The notes beneath the pieces are model-generated. The model saw nothing but the letters and a program-made list of their open reading frames with translations. It ran no database searches and was not told the DNA's origin. A stretch of DNA of 36,085 bases, taken from IMG/VR virus record IMGVR_UViG_3300034062_000768, positions 1 through 36,085 of that record. One strand, given 5' to 3'. This stretch comes from a virus. The position numbers were made by a program, and so were the translations under genes. Of this stretch, positions 1,572 through 9,447 are shown piece by piece (the first letter of the stretch is position 1; every line of letters starts with the position of its first letter).

Positions 1572-3476
1572 GTGAGCAACATATATCTCGATTTCGAAAC
1601 CCGCTCAACCTGCGACCTCAAGTCAGCAGGCGTCTACAACTACGCGCAGGACGCAAGCACCGAGGTGCTGTGTATGTCCTACGCCGTCGACGATGGCGAG
1701 GTTGTGACTTGGCTCCCCGGCCAGCCACTACCTGACTTCACCGGCCATCGCATAATGGCCCATAACGCCGCCTTCGAGCGGCTGATCTTATGGTACGTCT
1801 TGCAGGTCAACATCCCGCTGGAGTCTTTCTGCTGTACCGCCGCGCAGGCCCGCGCCAACTGTGCGCCAGGTAGCCTTGAGGATGTGGGCCGGTTCATGGG
1901 CGCGTCCATGAAGAAAGACCACCGGGGCGCTGCCCTCATCCGCAAGATGTGCGTACCACCGTACCAGGAGTCGGCTGAGTTGACCGCTGAGCTGATCCAG
2001 TATTGCGAACAGGATGTCCGGGCCATGCGGGTCATCAGTCAGGCCATGCGCCCGCTATCGGACGAGGAACTACTGGACTACCATGTCAACGAGCGCATCA
2101 ACGACCGGGGCGTCCTGGTCGATGTGCCGCTCTGCCGCGCAGCGGTGTCCTACGCCGCCACAGAAGCCGCTGAGATCGCCGAGATCGTCAAGGAGGTGTC
2201 CGAGGGCGAACTGACCTCTGTACGGTCGCCTAAGATGCGCCAGTGGGTCTGGGACAGAGTCGGCCCCGAGGCCCGCGCCCTGATGACCAAGGACGATAAG
2301 GTCAGCATCGACAAGACCGTCCGCGCCAACCTGCTGAACTGCGACGGAGTGCCGCCCGACGTTCAGGAGATCATCCAGTGCGCCGACGACCTGTGGGCGT
2401 CCAGTGTAGCCAAGTTCGCCCGACTCGCCCAACTGGCCGACGAGGAGGACAGTCGCGTCCGGGGCGCGTTCGTGTTCGCAGGCGGCAGCGCTACTGGCCG
2501 CGCCAGCAGCTACGGCGCCCAGGTTCACAACTTCACCCGCAAGTGCGCTAAAGCCCCCGAGGATGTCCGCGCCGCCATGTGCCGGGGCCACGCCATCGTC
2601 CCTAAGTTTGGCAAGCGCGTCACCGACGTCTTGCGGGGGATGTTGCGCCCCGCGCTGATCCCGGCCAAGGGTCGGCAGTTCGTCGTCGCCGATTGGTCAT
2701 CCATTGAGGCGCGGGTTAACCCTTGGCTGTCTGGTAAGGGTCAGGCCAAGCTGGACGTTTTCGAGTCTGGCCTCGACCCGTACATCGTCAACGCATCCGG
2801 CACGTTCAACCGTACCTATGACGACATCAAGGCCGACTACGACCGTGACGGCGAGTCCGCGCAGCGCCAGATCGGCAAGGTTCAGGAGTTGGCCTGCGGC
2901 TTTGCTGGCGGTGTCGGCGCGTTCGCGTCGATGGCTCGCATCTACAGTGTGCGCCTGTCCGAGGCCGACTCTAAGCGCATGGTCGACGCATGGCGCCGCA
3001 ACAATCAGTGGGCTGTCGGCTTCTGGTCGCAGCTTGAGCAGCAGTACACCAGGGCGATGCGAAACCGGGGGCAAGAGTTCACCGCCGGGCGGATAACTTA
3101 CCTGTTCGACGGCCTGCATCTCTGGTATTCTTTACCCTCTGGCCGTGTGCTTTGCTACCCCTTTGCCCGGCTGGAGGACGACGGCATCAGCTACGCTAAG
3201 GCAGCGTGGAAGCCCGCGCAGGACGCCACCGAGTGGCCCCGCGCCCGGCTGTGGCGCGGTCTGGCTTGCGAGAACGTCACCCAGGCCGTCGCCAACGATC
3301 TGCTGCGCTACGCGCTGCGCCAGCTTGATGATGTGGTTCTGCACGTTCACGACGAGATCGTCGTCGAGGGCGGTACAGAAGAGGAAGTGCGTAGGGTGAT
3401 GACTACGCCGCCAGCATGGGCCACTGGCCTGCCGCTGGACTGTGGTATCAAGACGATGCCGCGTTACGGCAAATAA
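1572..3476 (+). CDS. Family A DNA polymerase with 3'-5' exonuclease
   Basis: This 634-residue phage replicative polymerase shows all key motifs. The exonuclease domain has Exo I DFE (D7, E9), Exo II HNAAFE (64-69) and Exo III YCEQD (Y144, D148). The polymerase domain has TGR (308-310), motif A VVADWSSIEAR with D374, motif B with R432, K436 and GFAGG, and motif C HVHDE (H593, D594, E595). Start is GTG, immediately after the HNH stop; an in-frame TGA at 1569 rules out an earlier start. No strong ribosome site is seen before it, so translation may depend on coupling to the HNH gene. It should copy the phage genome with the primase-helicase encoded next. Confidence 0.95.
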   Translation: MSNIYLDFETRSTCDLKSAGVYNYAQDASTEVLCMSYAVDDGEVVTWLPGQPLPDFTGHRIMAHNAAFERLILWYVLQVNIPLESFCCTAAQARANCAPGSLEDVGRFMGASMKKDHRGAALIRKMCVPPYQESAELTAELIQYCEQDVRAMRVISQAMRPLSDEELLDYHVNERINDRGVLVDVPLCRAAVSYAATEAAEIAEIVKEVSEGELTSVRSPKMRQWVWDRVGPEARALMTKDDKVSIDKTVRANLLNCDGVPPDVQEIIQCADDLWASSVAKFARLAQLADEEDSRVRGAFVFAGGSATGRASSYGAQVHNFTRKCAKAPEDVRAAMCRGHAIVPKFGKRVTDVLRGMLRPALIPAKGRQFVVADWSSIEARVNPWLSGKGQAKLDVFESGLDPYIVNASGTFNRTYDDIKADYDRDGESAQRQIGKVQELACGFAGGVGAFASMARIYSVRLSEADSKRMVDAWRRNNQWAVGFWSQLEQQYTRAMRNRGQEFTAGRITYLFDGLHLWYSLPSGRVLCYPFARLEDDGISYAKAAWKPAQDATEWPRARLWRGLACENVTQAVANDLLRYALRQLDDVVLHVHDEIVVEGGTEEEVRRVMTTPPAWATGLPLDCGIKTMPRYGK

Positions 3477-3515: not shown

Positions 3516-5792
3516 GTGCAATTTTTAGATTTTATCACGGCTCTCGCGCCCGAGGGCGAGACAATGCTGTTTGTGCGCCAAAAACCACAGTTGCGTGGCG
3601 GCGAACGGCAGTATCACGCCGACGGGGCCATCAAGGCTACTTGGCCCTCGTACCTGCCGTCCCACGGCGTCCGTGATGGCGAGGCATGGTACGGCAATAC
3701 AGCGTCGTTCATCGTCGACCGTTTCGAGGACGGTCGCGTGTCGGCGTCGTCGGCCAATTGTGAGTACTGCGCGGTGATGGTGCTGGACGACATCGGCACT
3801 AAGTCCAAGACCCCGCCGCTGCCGCCAACTTGGATCATGGAGACCTCGCCCGGCAACTATCAGTACGGCTACGTCTTCAGCGAACAGCCGCCCAAGGGCG
3901 AGTTCGCCGCCGCCGTCAAGGCCATCGCCGCTGCGGGCTACACCGACCCCGGCGCCTGTAACCCCGTCCGCAACTTCCGCCTGCCGGGGTCGGTCAACAT
4001 GAAGCCTAATCGGGCCGAGTGGGGGTCGATTCTGACGGAGTTCCACCCAGACCGCGAGTTCACGTTGGCCGACATCTGCGCCGCCCTTGATGTGACGCCC
4101 GGCCCTGCCGAGTCCTCCGGCCCCCGCCCGATTCGGATGGCCGACGATGGCGCCGACGATGTGCTGGTCTGGTTGTCGGGTCAGGGGCTGCTGCTCAGTC
4201 GCCCTAACGCCGAGGGCTGGGCGGGGGTCATCTGCCCGAATAGCGCCGAGCATACCGACGGCAACCCAGAGGGCCGCTATATGCCCCTGAACCGGGCGTT
4301 CTGCTGTATGCACGGCCACTGCGTTGATCTGGACAGTAACACTTTTATGCAGTGGGTCGCCGACAACGGCGGCCCCCGCCACGCCCCCGGCCTGCGCGAC
4401 GAGTTGATGGCCGCGCATCTGGAACTGGCCCTCGCCAAGATCAAACCAAGCCCCGAGTACCCCGACGCCGCCGCCGAGGTCATCGCCGAAGTTGAACGCA
4501 AGGAATTAGGCAGGGTCGAGAAGTCTAAGTGGTATCAACGCTTCGCATATCTCCAGGATGACGAGGCGTTCTTCGATATGCAAGACCGCCGCGAGTTGTC
4601 CCGCAACACCTTCAACGCCTTGTTTCGGCACGTCAAGTGCGTGTCGGTTCACTCGACCGGCAAGTCGGCCCGCCGGGTTGAGGCCAGCGTATGCTTTGAC
4701 GAGAACCGGCAGGCGGCTGGCGCCAAGTCGCTGGTCGGTATTACTTATGCCGCTGGCGAGTCGGTGCTAGTCACCAAGGACGGGCTGGTCTACGGCAACC
4801 GCTGGCGCGACGCCCGCCCGCCGACTGTGGCCTGCGACATCAGCATCTGGCTTCGCCATTTGGAGCGCATGGTTCCCCTCGACTTCGAGCGTGAGCATCT
4901 GCTTAACGTGCTGGCCCATAAGGTTCAGTTCCCAGGTCACAAGATCAACCATGCCGTTCTGCTGGGCGGCAAGCCAGGCTCCGGTAAGGATACCCTTCTG
5001 GCGCCTTTTTTTTGGGCCGTCGGCGGCCCGGCCAAACTGAATTGTGCGCTGGTAAAAAATGAAGACCTGACTTCGCAGTGGGGCTACGGGCTGGAGTGCG
5101 AGGTCATGGAGATCGCCGAGTTGCGCCAGAGTGAGGCCCGCGACCGCCGGGCGTTGGAGAATCACCTCAAGCCAGTGATCGCCGCCCCGCCCGAGTACCT
5201 GCCCGTGAATCGTAAAGGACTGCACCCCTACATGGCCCTGAACCGGGTGCTGGTCGTGGCCTTCAGTAACGAGCGCGTGTCGATCTCGCTGCCCTCTGAT
5301 GACCGCCGTTGGTTCGTGCTCTGGGCGGCGGCTGAACGCCTGCCCGAGGTCGACGCCGTGGCCCTCTGGAATTGGTACACGAATCGTAACGGCTTCGCAG
5401 GCGTGGCGGCGTGGTTGGCCGCCCGCGACGTGTCGGCCTTCAACCCCGCCGCCCCGCCGCCGATGACCGAGGCCAAGGCCATCATGGTCGAGGCGGGGAT
5501 GAGTACTGCCGAATCGGTGCTGGTCGAGATGATGCGTGAGCGTCGCGGCCCGTTCGCCCAGGGCGTCATCGGCTCGCCGTTTCACATTATCTGCGACAGG
5601 GTCCAGGGGTCAGGCGCAGCGCCGCCGGGCGTCAAGATTGTCCAGGGCGCCCTGTTCCACGCCTTCCGCGAGGCCGGGTGGCTCGACATGGGCCTGATCC
5701 ATTCCCGAGACTTCAACAGCAAGAAGCATATTTTCGTGGCGCCTGAACTGGTCAGTATGACCAGGTCAGAGATGCGCCGGACGGTCGCGTGA
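3516..5792 (+). CDS. Primase-helicase (AEP-like primase plus SF3/VapE-like helicase)
   Basis: This 758-residue protein looks like a fused replication initiator. The N-terminal part resembles archaeo-eukaryotic primases of phage/plasmid type: VMVLDDIG (88-94, acidic pair D91/D92), ETSPGNYQ (109-116) and RNFRLPGSVN (152-161). A Cys/His cluster follows (C240, H246, C263, H266, C269), suggesting zinc binding. The C-terminal helicase has Walker A GGKPGSGKDT (484-493), a Walker B-like EVMEIAEL near 529 and a sensor-like VAFSNERV near 581, as in DUF5906/VapE-type enzymes. GTG is chosen because AAGGA lies 7 bases upstream; a later ATG at 3564 is the alternative. It would unwind and prime DNA for the polymerase. 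Domain types are inferred by motif. Confidence 0.87.
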   Translation: MQFLDFITALAPEGETMLFVRQKPQLRGGERQYHADGAIKATWPSYLPSHGVRDGEAWYGNTASFIVDRFEDGRVSASSANCEYCAVMVLDDIGTKSKTPPLPPTWIMETSPGNYQYGYVFSEQPPKGEFAAAVKAIAAAGYTDPGACNPVRNFRLPGSVNMKPNRAEWGSILTEFHPDREFTLADICAALDVTPGPAESSGPRPIRMADDGADDVLVWLSGQGLLLSRPNAEGWAGVICPNSAEHTDGNPEGRYMPLNRAFCCMHGHCVDLDSNTFMQWVADNGGPRHAPGLRDELMAAHLELALAKIKPSPEYPDAAAEVIAEVERKELGRVEKSKWYQRFAYLQDDEAFFDMQDRRELSRNTFNALFRHVKCVSVHSTGKSARRVEASVCFDENRQAAGAKSLVGITYAAGESVLVTKDGLVYGNRWRDARPPTVACDISIWLRHLERMVPLDFEREHLLNVLAHKVQFPGHKINHAVLLGGKPGSGKDTLLAPFFWAVGGPAKLNCALVKNEDLTSQWGYGLECEVMEIAELRQSEARDRRALENHLKPVIAAPPEYLPVNRKGLHPYMALNRVLVVAFSNERVSISLPSDDRRWFVLWAAAERLPEVDAVALWNWYTNRNGFAGVAAWLAARDVSAFNPAAPPPMTEAKAIMVEAGMSTAESVLVEMMRERRGPFAQGVIGSPFHIICDRVQGSGAAPPGVKIVQGALFHAFREAGWLDMGLIHSRDFNSKKHIFVAPELVSMTRSEMRRTVA

Positions 5793-7185: not shown

Positions 7186-7461
7186 TCAATAACCGGCCAA
7201 AATATCAGTTTTGAATTCTGCAAGTGTCAGATTACGGGCAAAATAATCATCGCCCAACTTGTTAAAACAAGCGTGTACAGCTTGCCCGTTTTCATTGTGG
7301 CGAAGGGGTTCACCGACAAGAAAAGCCCCGCCACGTTGCGCCCTGGGTGGTACGCATTCCAGCATCTCCCAATACATGGCTTCGGTGGTCGGTATCCATT
7401 CGGAGGGCTTGGCGTCCATAGCTGCCCACAATGGCGACCATTCCAATGGGGTGGCGTTCAT
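7186..7461 (-). CDS. Hypothetical 91-residue protein (weak DUF1419 resemblance)
   Basis: The protein starts MNATPLEWSPLWAAMDAKPS and contains EAMYWEMLECVPPRAQRGG (residues 28-46) and AFLVGEPLRHNENGQAVHAC. The Y-x-E-M-L-E-x-x-P-P...GG-x-F pattern resembles DUF1419-type plasmid proteins, but the assignment is weak. The start at 7461 is chosen because its ATGA overlaps the stop of the upstream gene and GAAGGGG lies just before; the open frame extends to 7506 without support. It ends 77 bases before the small membrane gene. Confidence 0.65.
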   Translation of the reverse strand: MNATPLEWSPLWAAMDAKPSEWIPTTEAMYWEMLECVPPRAQRGGAFLVGEPLRHNENGQAVHACFNKLGDDYFARNLTLAEFKTDILAGY

Positions 7462-7745
7462 GCTGCGACCCCTTCGCGCTGAGTCAAACGGTTGATACGT
7501 TCGCACAGAGAATCAAGGCATCCGGCATATTCTTGAAATACGATACCGCCACCATATTGTTTGTTATGAAATTTTTTGCCGCCGATACTGTTAGCCAGTT
7601 TGCAGGCAATGGCGTAGCGATCTGACAATCCGATATTAGACTGCCACCCGTGAACGTCTAAATGTAGGAAATGGCAAACGTGGCGCGGGTTTCCATTTGC
7701 GTCATTATTTATCCGTGTGAAGTCATCAGGGGTTATTTGCTTCAT
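7458..7745 (-). CDS. Hypothetical 95-residue protein
   Basis: The protein starts MKQITPDDFTRINNDANGNP, then a short beta-rich stretch (RHVCHFLHLDV) and a helix beginning DRYAIACKLANSIGGKKFHN. I recognise it only as the kind of conserved hypothetical seen on proteobacterial phages and plasmids. The ATG is preceded by AGGAAAACACC. It overlaps the next gene by 4 bases. Function unknown. Confidence 0.7.
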   Translation of the reverse strand: MKQITPDDFTRINNDANGNPRHVCHFLHLDVHGWQSNIGLSDRYAIACKLANSIGGKKFHNKQYGGGIVFQEYAGCLDSLCERINRLTQREGVAA

Positions 7746-7777
7746 GGTGTTTTCCTGTTACCGGCACAATTGCCGCC

Positions 7778-7798
7778 ACTGCCCACAGTATGGGCAGT
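7778..7798. other. Hairpin in the gap after the SprT-like gene
   Basis: ACTGCCCA and TGGGCAGT form a perfect 8-bp stem around a 5-base loop, in the 65-base gap between the SprT-like gene and the next gene of the leftward operon. No T run follows on either strand. It could be an mRNA stability element or an intra-operon attenuator. Confidence 0.4.
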
Positions 7799-7810
7799 AG
7801 CTGAAACTGT

Positions 7811-8380
7811 TTAAACGCTTTCCATCTCGCCATGATCCGGGCAGTGAGGCGCGCCCATGTCGTTCAGCCATTTGCCAGCTACGCGCACGGTATAACCACA
7901 CTCGCGGCATACACACTTCAACATTCTGGTGCTTTGCTTTTTCTGCGCGTTTGCGGGGACTAGATCGGCATGGGGGTATGCGCCAAGTTGGGCGAGCACA
8001 GGCGACGCCCATGCGGTGAATTGTGGGCCTGCTACTGTCGCTGTCATCTTGCCAGTGAGGCCGATAGCAAGGGCAGTGCGTTTAAACGCTTTGCCGTGCC
8101 CGTCATTCGGGTGTGATGCGTGAATCATCTCATGCGCCAAAATGTCAAGCACTCGGGCGCTGTCGCTGATTGTGGGCGAGATGAAAATCTCGGCATGTTT
8201 ATCAGCACTGGCACGGGCAGACCAACATTCGCCAATTCTGCGGTTCTTGCTTGCCAGTGCTGATTTTGAAGGGAAGCCGCATGAGGCGCGCACTTGCAAG
8301 GGTAAGTCTACGCCACACTGTTTAAACAGTGCGCGCAGTTCAATGGTAGCTTGAGAGAGCCATTGTTCGCGTGTTTGCAT
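7811..8380 (-). CDS. SprT-like zinc metalloprotease
   Basis: This 189-residue protein has the zinc protease motif HEMIH (83-87) with a third ligand candidate H95 in the following HGKAF, then a C-terminal zinc ribbon (C158, C161, C180, H183). This order is that of SprT/Spartan-like proteins. Spartan homologues cleave proteins crosslinked to or tightly bound on DNA; bacterial SprT roles are poorly known. It is first gene of the leftward operon, with AAGGA before the ATG, and transcription probably starts in the repeat-rich region to its right. A role in clearing host proteins from phage DNA is inference. Confidence 0.85.
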   Translation of the reverse strand: MQTREQWLSQATIELRALFKQCGVDLPLQVRASCGFPSKSALASKNRRIGECWSARASADKHAEIFISPTISDSARVLDILAHEMIHASHPNDGHGKAFKRTALAIGLTGKMTATVAGPQFTAWASPVLAQLGAYPHADLVPANAQKKQSTRMLKCVCRECGYTVRVAGKWLNDMGAPHCPDHGEMESV

Positions 8381-8447: not shown

Positions 8448-8620
8448 AGTGTGACAAATTATTTAACTGATCGTTTGTACAGTGCGCCATTGTGGGTCAT
8501 GTGTGTCGGAGTGTGGGTTGACTGTGGGTAATGACGTTGACGTGATGCTCTCCAATGAAAATGGGCCTTTGTGTGTCATGTGTGTCAAGTATTTTTCAAT
8601 AAACAAAAAAAAAATGTCAG

Positions 8621-8632
8621 TATGTATACATA
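8621..8632. repeat. 12-bp perfect palindrome TATGTATACATA
   Basis: A perfect palindrome immediately after a run of ten A (8605-8614). Its symmetry suggests a dimer-binding site; its AT content also adds to local ease of melting. Confidence 0.4.
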
Positions 8633-8696
8633 GGGCTAGACTAGGCCCGTGCATACCATGCATACGTTTGTGCGGAGTTGGAGCGACTGAAAAGTG

Positions 8697-8752
8697 ATGG
8701 CACACACTGCCCACATGACCCACACGCCTAGATTGTGGGCAGTGTGTGCCAT
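8697..8752. repeat. 19-bp perfect inverted repeat with 18-base spacer
   Basis: The left arm ATGGCACACACTGCCCACA (8697-8715) is exactly matched by its reverse complement at 8734-8752. The decamer ATGGCACACA at the arm tip recurs as direct copies at 8762 and 8771. Such symmetry is far beyond chance and indicates a large cruciform/RNA hairpin or a binding site for an initiator or regulator. Confidence 0.75.
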
Positions 8753-8786
8753 GTTTGCCAGATGGCACACATGGCACACATCCCTA

Positions 8787-8952
8787 GTGCACTGCCTGCC
8801 GGTCGCCCTGGTGCACTGCCTGCCGGTCGCCCTGGTGCACTGCCCACATGGCACATGGCTGCCCGGCTGCTGGCTGCTGGCTGCTGGCTGCCTACCTGCC
8901 GGTCGCCTACCTGCCGGTCGCCTGCCTGCCGGTCGCCTGCCTGCCGGTCGCC
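8787..8952. repeat. Iteron-like array, six copies of a 13-mer
   Basis: CCTGCCGGTCGCC occurs exactly at 8795, 8819, 8895, 8910, 8925 and 8940. The first two lie in a 24-bp tandem unit (8787-8810, 8811-8834, then a 10-base partial copy); the last four are spaced exactly 15 bp. A short GGCTGCT tandem (about 8865-8889) lies between them. The spacing of one and a half and two and a quarter helical turns and nearness to AT-rich DNA fit initiator-binding iterons. Confidence 0.7.
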
Positions 8953-9024
8953 GAGGCCGGGGTGGGAGGGCCGAGCGCCGATGGTCACGGCTACGGAGCG
9001 TCCGCAAACAATTTTTATTTTTTA

Positions 9025-9033
9025 TGATATAAA
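9025..9033 (+). promoter_or_regulatory. Extended -10 promoter of the late operon
   Basis: TGATATAAA matches the extended -10 pattern TGnTATAAT with one mismatch. If 9033 is position -7, transcription starts at 9040, the A of the first late gene's ATG. No ribosome site precedes that ATG, so the message may be leaderless. No good -35 is seen (CAAACA at 9005), as is common for extended -10 promoters. It is placed at the edge of the repeat region. Confidence 0.5.
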
Positions 9034-9039
9034 CCGCGC

Positions 9040-9447
9040 ATGATCTCCTTTCCGCTATCAATTCGAGAGTTAAAAGCAACAGAGTCGCGCTTACAGGCCG
9101 TGTACGATGCAGCAAAGCTAGGCTTGCGCGGTGAGACACTCGCGCTTGCAGCCGGTATGCTGCCGCAAGAATTCATGACGCTGAGTAACTTTGATCCAGT
9201 TGTGAACATGGCCGCGATGAAGGGCAAAGCCGACGGCGAACGCGAGATGGCCGAGATTCTGCACAACGCCGCGCGGGGCGGCGACGCCAAGGCGGCGCTA
9301 GAGATACTGAAGCATCAACACGGCTGGGTCGCCAAGCAGGCTATCTCAGTAGAGATAGACCAACGCATATCCATAACCCAGGCGCTGGCAGAAGCCGAGC
9401 GGCGCATCGTAGAAATCATAGATGCAGACCACAATCTACCAGCCTGA
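9040..9447 (+). CDS. Probable terminase small subunit
   Basis: This 135-residue helical protein lies directly before, and overlaps by 26 bases, the large terminase gene. Residues 8-40 (IRELKATESRLQAVYDAAKL) resemble a helical DNA-recognition region, and AAGMLPQEF a helix-turn-helix segment; AALEILKHQHGW (90-101) is typical of small terminase subunits. It should recognise the packaging site and regulate the large subunit. No Shine-Dalgarno is visible before ATG 9040; the predicted transcript starts at the ATG itself. Assignment rests on synteny and pattern. Confidence 0.75.
   Translation: MISFPLSIRELKATESRLQAVYDAAKLGLRGETLALAAGMLPQEFMTLSNFDPVVNMAAMKGKADGEREMAEILHNAARGGDAKAALEILKHQHGWVAKQAISVEIDQRISITQALAEAERRIVEIIDADHNLPA

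Follow-up and report, generated by a model that had tools for sequence, protein, structure and literature searches.

The question raised by this locus is whether the repeats located upstream of the terminase genes of a virus belong to a replication origin and, if so, which of them would be read, and by which protein. The window, i.e. the whole stretch of 36,085 nucleotides analyzed, is a 36-kb viral contig. To the left of the repeats are found an exonuclease, an A-type polymerase gene (1572-3476) and a primase-helicase, followed by minus-strand genes, mostly without known function, the last of which is a SprT-like gene (7811-8380); on the right side follow terS (9040), terL (9422) and a P22-type portal gene. 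The repeats lie, therefore, between divergent transcription units. Two further genes are present on the left side: a NUMOD4/HNH homing-type endonuclease gene (1191-1571), directly before the polymerase gene, and a region (7458-7745) coding for a small protein which matches the Pfam family Phage_TreK, the terminal repeat-encoded protein of Staphylococcus phages, here in a freshwater phage.

Within the phage collection, the nearest record is the uncultured genome MW202483 (L088; primase 49%, TerS 56%). Plasmids contain distant primase relatives only; related primases were also found in freshwater MAG bins, one of them labelled Rhodoferax, bearing in mind that bins can be contaminated. In MW202483, which serves as an outgroup, the region upstream of terS (7600-8100) is dense in TGTTTAC repeats, partly arranged as 14-bp palindromes (TGTTTACRTAAACA), and a homing endonuclease gene is located between the origin region and terS.

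The repeats that first attract attention are six exact copies of a 13-mer, CCTGCCGGTCGCC, which an earlier note had proposed as the iterons of a plasmid-type origin. Their positions (8795, 8819, 8895, 8910, 8925 and 8940) are as claimed there, and the 24- and 15-bp periods were recovered by using Tandem Repeats Finder, which reports three arrays:

8782-8844, no strand: 24-bp tandem array (2.6 copies, 97%), containing the 13-mers at 8795 and 8819
8856-8891, no strand: 7-bp TGGCTGC tandem array, separating the two groups of 13-mers
8890-8952, no strand: 15-bp tandem array (4.2 copies, 97%), containing the 13-mers at 8895, 8910, 8925 and 8940

When up to 2 mismatches are allowed, just 3 further sites appear in the 36 kb. 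Since dinucleotide shuffles produce, even at this tolerance, a mean of 1.4 sites (maximum 5), chance is ruled out for the 13-mer copies. The GC content of 8787-8952 is 74%, and no conserved gene covers the region, which is intergenic as described. A coding origin of the repeats was considered and rejected: open frames span the array, but no gene is kept, and relatives swap in other periods.

Conservation was evaluated on at least 80 related viral loci, collected by a terS search. Among the matches listed, the 13-mer array is present only in L007 and L008/L011, near-identical to the window; the genome collection gave no match, and all contigs matched in the viral collection were near-identical. 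The 13-mer is absent from L012 and L022, whose primases are 98-99% identical to that of the window, and occurs as one copy each in L010 (primase 95%), L013 and L014 (97%, calculated on a partial primase); L010, L012, L014 and L022 retain the replication genes within the range covered by their contigs. In place of the 13-mer, relatives carry TGGCTGC (the dominant repeat in L010, L012, L014 and L028), GGCGGTCGGGC, CTGGCCGTGCTGGTG, 23-bp AT-rich units, or nothing, the periods being 7, 11, 15 or 22-24 bp, with other sequences. Of the 121 non-redundant upstream regions compared, about one half have a tandem repeat at this place, and the units are unrelated. The single copy abuts the conserved box preceding terS in L014 and is found at the far end in L010, positions which suggest that the window arrays resemble local amplifications of a pre-existing sequence.

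As judged from these comparisons, the 13-mer array is a hypervariable, fast-turnover minisatellite, located between the putative origin and the terminase box; it appears unneeded for recognition, and would act at most as a spacer. Six exact copies, a regular 15-bp pitch, an intergenic position and nearby AT-rich DNA are what would be expected of origin iterons bound by the primase-helicase or by a small phage protein, but this assignment is hardly tenable for an array that disappears, or shrinks to one copy, next to 95-99% identical primases (an outcome which the earlier note had itself named as decisive against it), is substituted by other repeats and, in wider searches, was matched by near-identical viral contigs only. 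It may also be supposed that the array is useful by its composition, as a GC-rich fork barrier, a terminator, or a recombination or packaging spacer, while its exact sequence drifts. The recurrence of unrelated tandem units at the same place would agree with such a role, which is nevertheless unlikely: many relatives have no repeat there at all, and the units range from ~33 to 94% GC, so that no common property is evident. Repeats similar to GTTAGTGAGTGCTTACTAACCTGG recur at the hypervariable spot upstream of terS in the distantly related phages L029, L035, L115, L213 and L215, and are possibly mobile or regulatory palindromes.

Origin-like iterons are present up to 300 bp upstream of the 13-mer array, where 14 copies of a 9-bp motif (about TGTGKGYMR, slightly degenerate matching) occupy 8491-8848, often at an exact 9-bp pitch. 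By using the strict pattern TGTGKGYCA, all 8 sites of the window fall inside 8491-8780, with 1.9 expected in 36 kb. The region is organized as follows:

8491-8587, plus strand: left iteron block, with iterons at 8491, 8500, 8512, 8523, 8570 and 8579
8588-8632, no strand: AT-rich stretch (82.5% AT in 40 bp) between the iteron blocks, presumed DNA-unwinding element
8698-8848, mixed strands: right iteron block, with iterons on the minus strand at 8698, 8707 and 8716, on the plus strand at 8734 and 8743, and again on the minus strand at 8763, 8772 and 8840

The left block is composed of TGTGGGTCA, TGTGTGTCG, TGTGGGTTG, TGTGGGTAA and two copies of TGTGTGTCA, and its all-plus orientation is found again in most relatives. 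The right block includes a 19-bp perfect inverted repeat (8697-8715/8734-8752), and its order of three minus, two plus and three minus iterons is kept in close relatives. An AT-rich stretch (72-88% AT) lies at the equivalent position in the majority of 45 listed relatives, and the entire layout recurs in dozens of relatives, covering most of those tested. No viral contig matched a 27-bp exact iteron pattern. Lineage-specific 9-bp iterons are present upstream of terS in almost every close relative having a window-type primase, and practically missing elsewhere in each locus. Depending on the lineage, the 9-mers are TGTGTGCCA, TGTAGTCAA, TGTGGGCTA, TGTTGGCTA, TGTAAGTCA or TGTGGACAA, and those of distant clades include TTTGGGTCA, TCTAGGCTA and others. 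In several distant clades (e.g. L153, L123 and L138) no iteron was found by the T-N-T 9-bp detector.

The 9-mers are thus a repeated short non-coding motif, adjacent to an AT-rich element and conserved together with the presumed initiator, as is typical of iteron origins. The earlier claim of an iteron-type origin holds in the sense that an origin-like iteron region is present; the 13-mer is not its iteron, and the AT-rich DNA at 9006-9034, which the note had pointed out next to the array, is part of a separate conserved box upstream of terS, the likely unwinding element being 8588-8632. AT skew changes sign within 8.5-9.0 kb and GC skew climbs from about 9 kb, but gene orientation also switches at this place and confounds the skews. 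Sub-threshold chance matches only were obtained from Rfam in the region, and no promoter-like pattern stood out in a promoter/terminator scan.

In order to discuss which protein would read the iterons, four further features are needed:

3516-5792, plus strand: primase-helicase, 758 aa, with RepB_primase and DUF5906/NrS-1-like helicase domains, proposed initiator
5505-5738 (residues 664-741), plus strand: predicted C-terminal winged-helix domain of the same protein (AlphaFold2 models, covariation)
8953-9035, plus strand: terS-proximal box, GGCCGGGGTGGGAGGGCCGAGCG...CACGGCTACGGAGCGT..GCAAACAATTTTTATTTTTTATGATATAAA, directly upstream of terS and including the AT-rich 9006-9034
9040-9447, plus strand: terminase small subunit (terS), used as control protein, with no iteron covariation once the primase is accounted for

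The RepB_primase domain (PF16793) of the primase-helicase was matched narrowly above the cut-off (E=1e-5), and the NrS-1-like helicase domain is supported by the best BFVD hits. AlphaFold2, run on 67 aligned C-termini, predicts a helix at 664-674, a strand at 684-686, helices at 689-699 and 710-720, and strands at 723-730 and 733-741, i.e. the order H1-S1-H2-H3-S2-wing-S3, with residue 731 at the tip of the wing; modelled alone, the domain reaches a pLDDT of 91. Foldseek found no significant match for it in the PDB, so that the winged-helix call rests on the order and topology of the elements; searching PDB profiles with the C-terminus returned chance hits only, and Pfam has no model for it.

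The sequence of the iterons follows the C-terminal ~40 residues of the primase-helicase, and not TerS. The iterons of L043 are TGTAGTCAA, those of its closest relatives, the sister clade, TGTGTGCCA; compared with this clade, the L043 primase has lineage-specific changes at 15 of the 58 residues in 701-758 and at 20 of the 700 elsewhere (Fisher p=3e-9), and its TerS differs by one residue. A search with the L043 C-terminus listed some twenty loci (L172-L191) which share the motif GRLTSRE and have TGTAGTCAA iterons; in those reaching TerL (e.g. L173, L178 and L187) no homologous TerS was found. L192 is a natural hybrid, with the LVHS half coming from one class and the FPTKKH half from the other; its iterons are TGTGGGCAG, in which base 4 is reverted to G.

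The association was quantified by Mantel tests on 53 non-redundant loci, taking residues 720-742 as the wing for distance calculation. Iteron distance correlates with wing distance after the rest of the primase is accounted for (partial r=0.42, permutation p=0.001); the corresponding values are 0.02 for the rest of the primase given the C-terminus, and 0.07 for TerS given both wing and rest of the primase. A scan of all columns of the 758-residue primase identified residue 729 as the top predictor of bases 4 and 6, and residue 727 as that of base 5. At residue 731, Arg is accompanied by G at iteron base 2 in 29 loci out of 29, and G is found in none of the 12 non-Arg loci (p=1e-10), where Gly, Ser or Phe go with T, and Thr, Val or Ile with C. 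Independent pairs were counted on a tree of the primase without its C-terminus, along which the 731/base 2 state changes at least 9 times. All 6 pairs were concordant for Arg/non-Arg at 731 and base 2 (p=0.03), as were all 7 for His/Lys versus Ala/Thr at 729 and G versus non-G at base 4 (p=0.016), the sample of these sign tests being 6-8 independent switches. Near-identical primases differing in the wing illustrate the same correspondence (L173/L192, L152/L163, L155/L115 and L171/L193). Since the base states of some distant clades were taken from 2-4 repeat units each, and partly assigned by hand, the table is firm for the Arg/G pair and provisional otherwise; in L213, L225 and L062 a standard wing is found, yet there are few or no tandem units.

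All the covarying residues (727, 729, 731 and 734) are within the wing (723-741), which suggests that variation in specificity is carried by the wing rather than by the presumed recognition helix. A plausible, still tentative reading is that the wing embodies a near one-residue-one-base iteron code (731 for base 2, 729 for base 4, 727 and 734 for bases 5 and 6), and that freshwater phages repeatedly switch both partners, founding plasmid-like replication-compatibility groups. The earlier note had indicated either the primase-helicase or an unknown small protein as initiator; by its covariation with the iterons, the C-terminus of the former points to the primase-helicase as the best candidate.

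The fate of the iterons where modules are exchanged points in the same direction. L046, L030 and L031 keep a window-type terS, together with terL, and the box of terS; upstream, they have no homolog of the window primase, and no iterons were found in them. L046 has instead genes for an SSB, a Cas4-type exonuclease and a helicase, plus a Sf6-type terminase small subunit gene upstream. As the iterons are missing where the primase is missing and terS is kept, they go with the primase and not with the terminase; the modules have apparently been exchanged exactly at the border between origin and terS. The box, with the group-wide pattern GGGCCGAGCG...GGCCA-CG..ACGGAG...CACAAACAAATTTTTTT-ATATAAA, stays in place also in phages whose replication module and iterons have been exchanged (L030/L046), and is probably a late promoter or a packaging (cos/pac) site, not part of the origin. 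In L053 and L081, a tRNA-like sequence (GGTTCGAATCC), not called as a tRNA by ARAGORN, takes the place of the box in the last ~110 bp upstream of terS. L030 also contains, between terS and terL, an ORF of 290 aa (4280-5152) whose family was not recognized.

These observations bear on two other explanations of the 9-mers. They could form a packaging site, bound by the TerS encoded directly downstream, as they sit just upstream of terS, and pac and cosB sites are often near this gene. This is very improbable, given the switch of iterons in L043 with a near-identical TerS, the TGTAGTCAA iterons of L173-L191 with no homologous TerS, the presence of TerS and box without iterons in L046, and the low partial correlation of TerS; moreover, the box at 8953-9035 is a better packaging candidate. 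Alternatively, the primase C-terminus could bind the 9-mers as a switch between early and late transcription, or as a control of copy number, rather than at an origin. The position between divergent transcription units would suit such a function, and in phage P4 the alpha protein has another target besides the origin, the control region crr. Against it, an AT-rich element flanked by iterons whose orientation is conserved is typical of origins, and the lack of an outstanding promoter-like pattern in the scan also makes the control function quite unlikely.

The preferred reading, to which a probability of about 0.8 is assigned, is that 8491-8848 is a P4-alpha-like replication origin, whose iterons would be read by the phage's own primase-helicase through its C-terminal winged helix. 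This domain would bind the 9-bp iterons, and its oriented binding to the left and right of 8588-8632 would melt the AT-rich DNA, on which primase and SF3-type helicase ring would be placed. After priming by the primase, extension would be carried out by the phage's own polymerase. Because the winged helix would place both helicase ring and primase, one protein would recognize, unwind and prime the origin. Specificity would be set by the wing, with residue 731 determining base 2 and residue 729 base 4, while bases 5 and 6 would be influenced by residues 727 and 734.

Such an arrangement may be compared with several known systems. The alpha protein of phage P4 is at once origin binder, helicase and primase, and its winged-helix domain binds the origin repeats, as stated in PMC4234260 with reference to Ziegelin & Lanka 1995 and Yeo et al. 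2002. The window protein is likewise proposed to unite the three activities; it has primase and SF3-like helicase domains, and a putative winged helix, seen as an AlphaFold2 topology for which no significant fold or sequence match was found. Unlike P4 alpha, with its bacterial-type Toprim primase, it contains RepB_primase/DUF5906, and its iterons are 9 bp long and of other sequence. As its primase domain belongs to a different type, the system would work in a P4-alpha-like way and is not filed as a member of that group. Proteins of the pRN1 ORF904 type join an archaeo-eukaryotic primase, a SF3 helicase and a C-terminal DNA-binding winged helix (PMC4234260), the same order of activities as in the window protein, where the winged helix is predicted. 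In the one relative studied, that paper found no iterons, and it proposed for proteins of this build an assembly at a stem-loop (PMC4234260), whereas the proposed sites in the window are double-stranded 9-bp iterons. The primase-polymerase of phage NrS-1, after which the helicase domain is named, shares this domain type; it recognizes TTTGGTTA, an 8-mer with two copies in the genome, via a helix-bundle domain for primer start (PMC8718748, PMC7102993), and, unlike the window, has no iteron array. As in iteron plasmid origins (RSF1010 RepC, RK2 TrfA and P1 RepA type), the iterons of the window are beside an AT-rich unwinding element; in the plasmids a separate Rep protein binds them, while in the window the presumed reader forms one polypeptide with helicase and primase, and the iterons are only 9 bp long, in mixed orientation.

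In a literature search of incomplete coverage, no paper was found that describes 9-bp iterons in the RepB_primase/DUF5906 family. For AEP primases with a C-terminal WH (PolpTN2, PrimQH and RepB'), origin recognition by this terminal domain had been speculated (PMC5862659), and no sites were known. By the features of the RepB' type, the window protein has the RepB_primase match close to the cut-off (E=1e-5) and a WH deriving from the model only; here, sites and their covariation with the wing are seen by sequence. In comparison with those primases, the sites are now visible and covary with specific residues across some nine evolutionary switches, so that the way in which such initiators find their origins becomes open to a direct single-residue test; the origins of many uncultured phages could be annotated from sequence alone, and the switched lineages possibly offer an orthogonal set of origin/initiator pairs.
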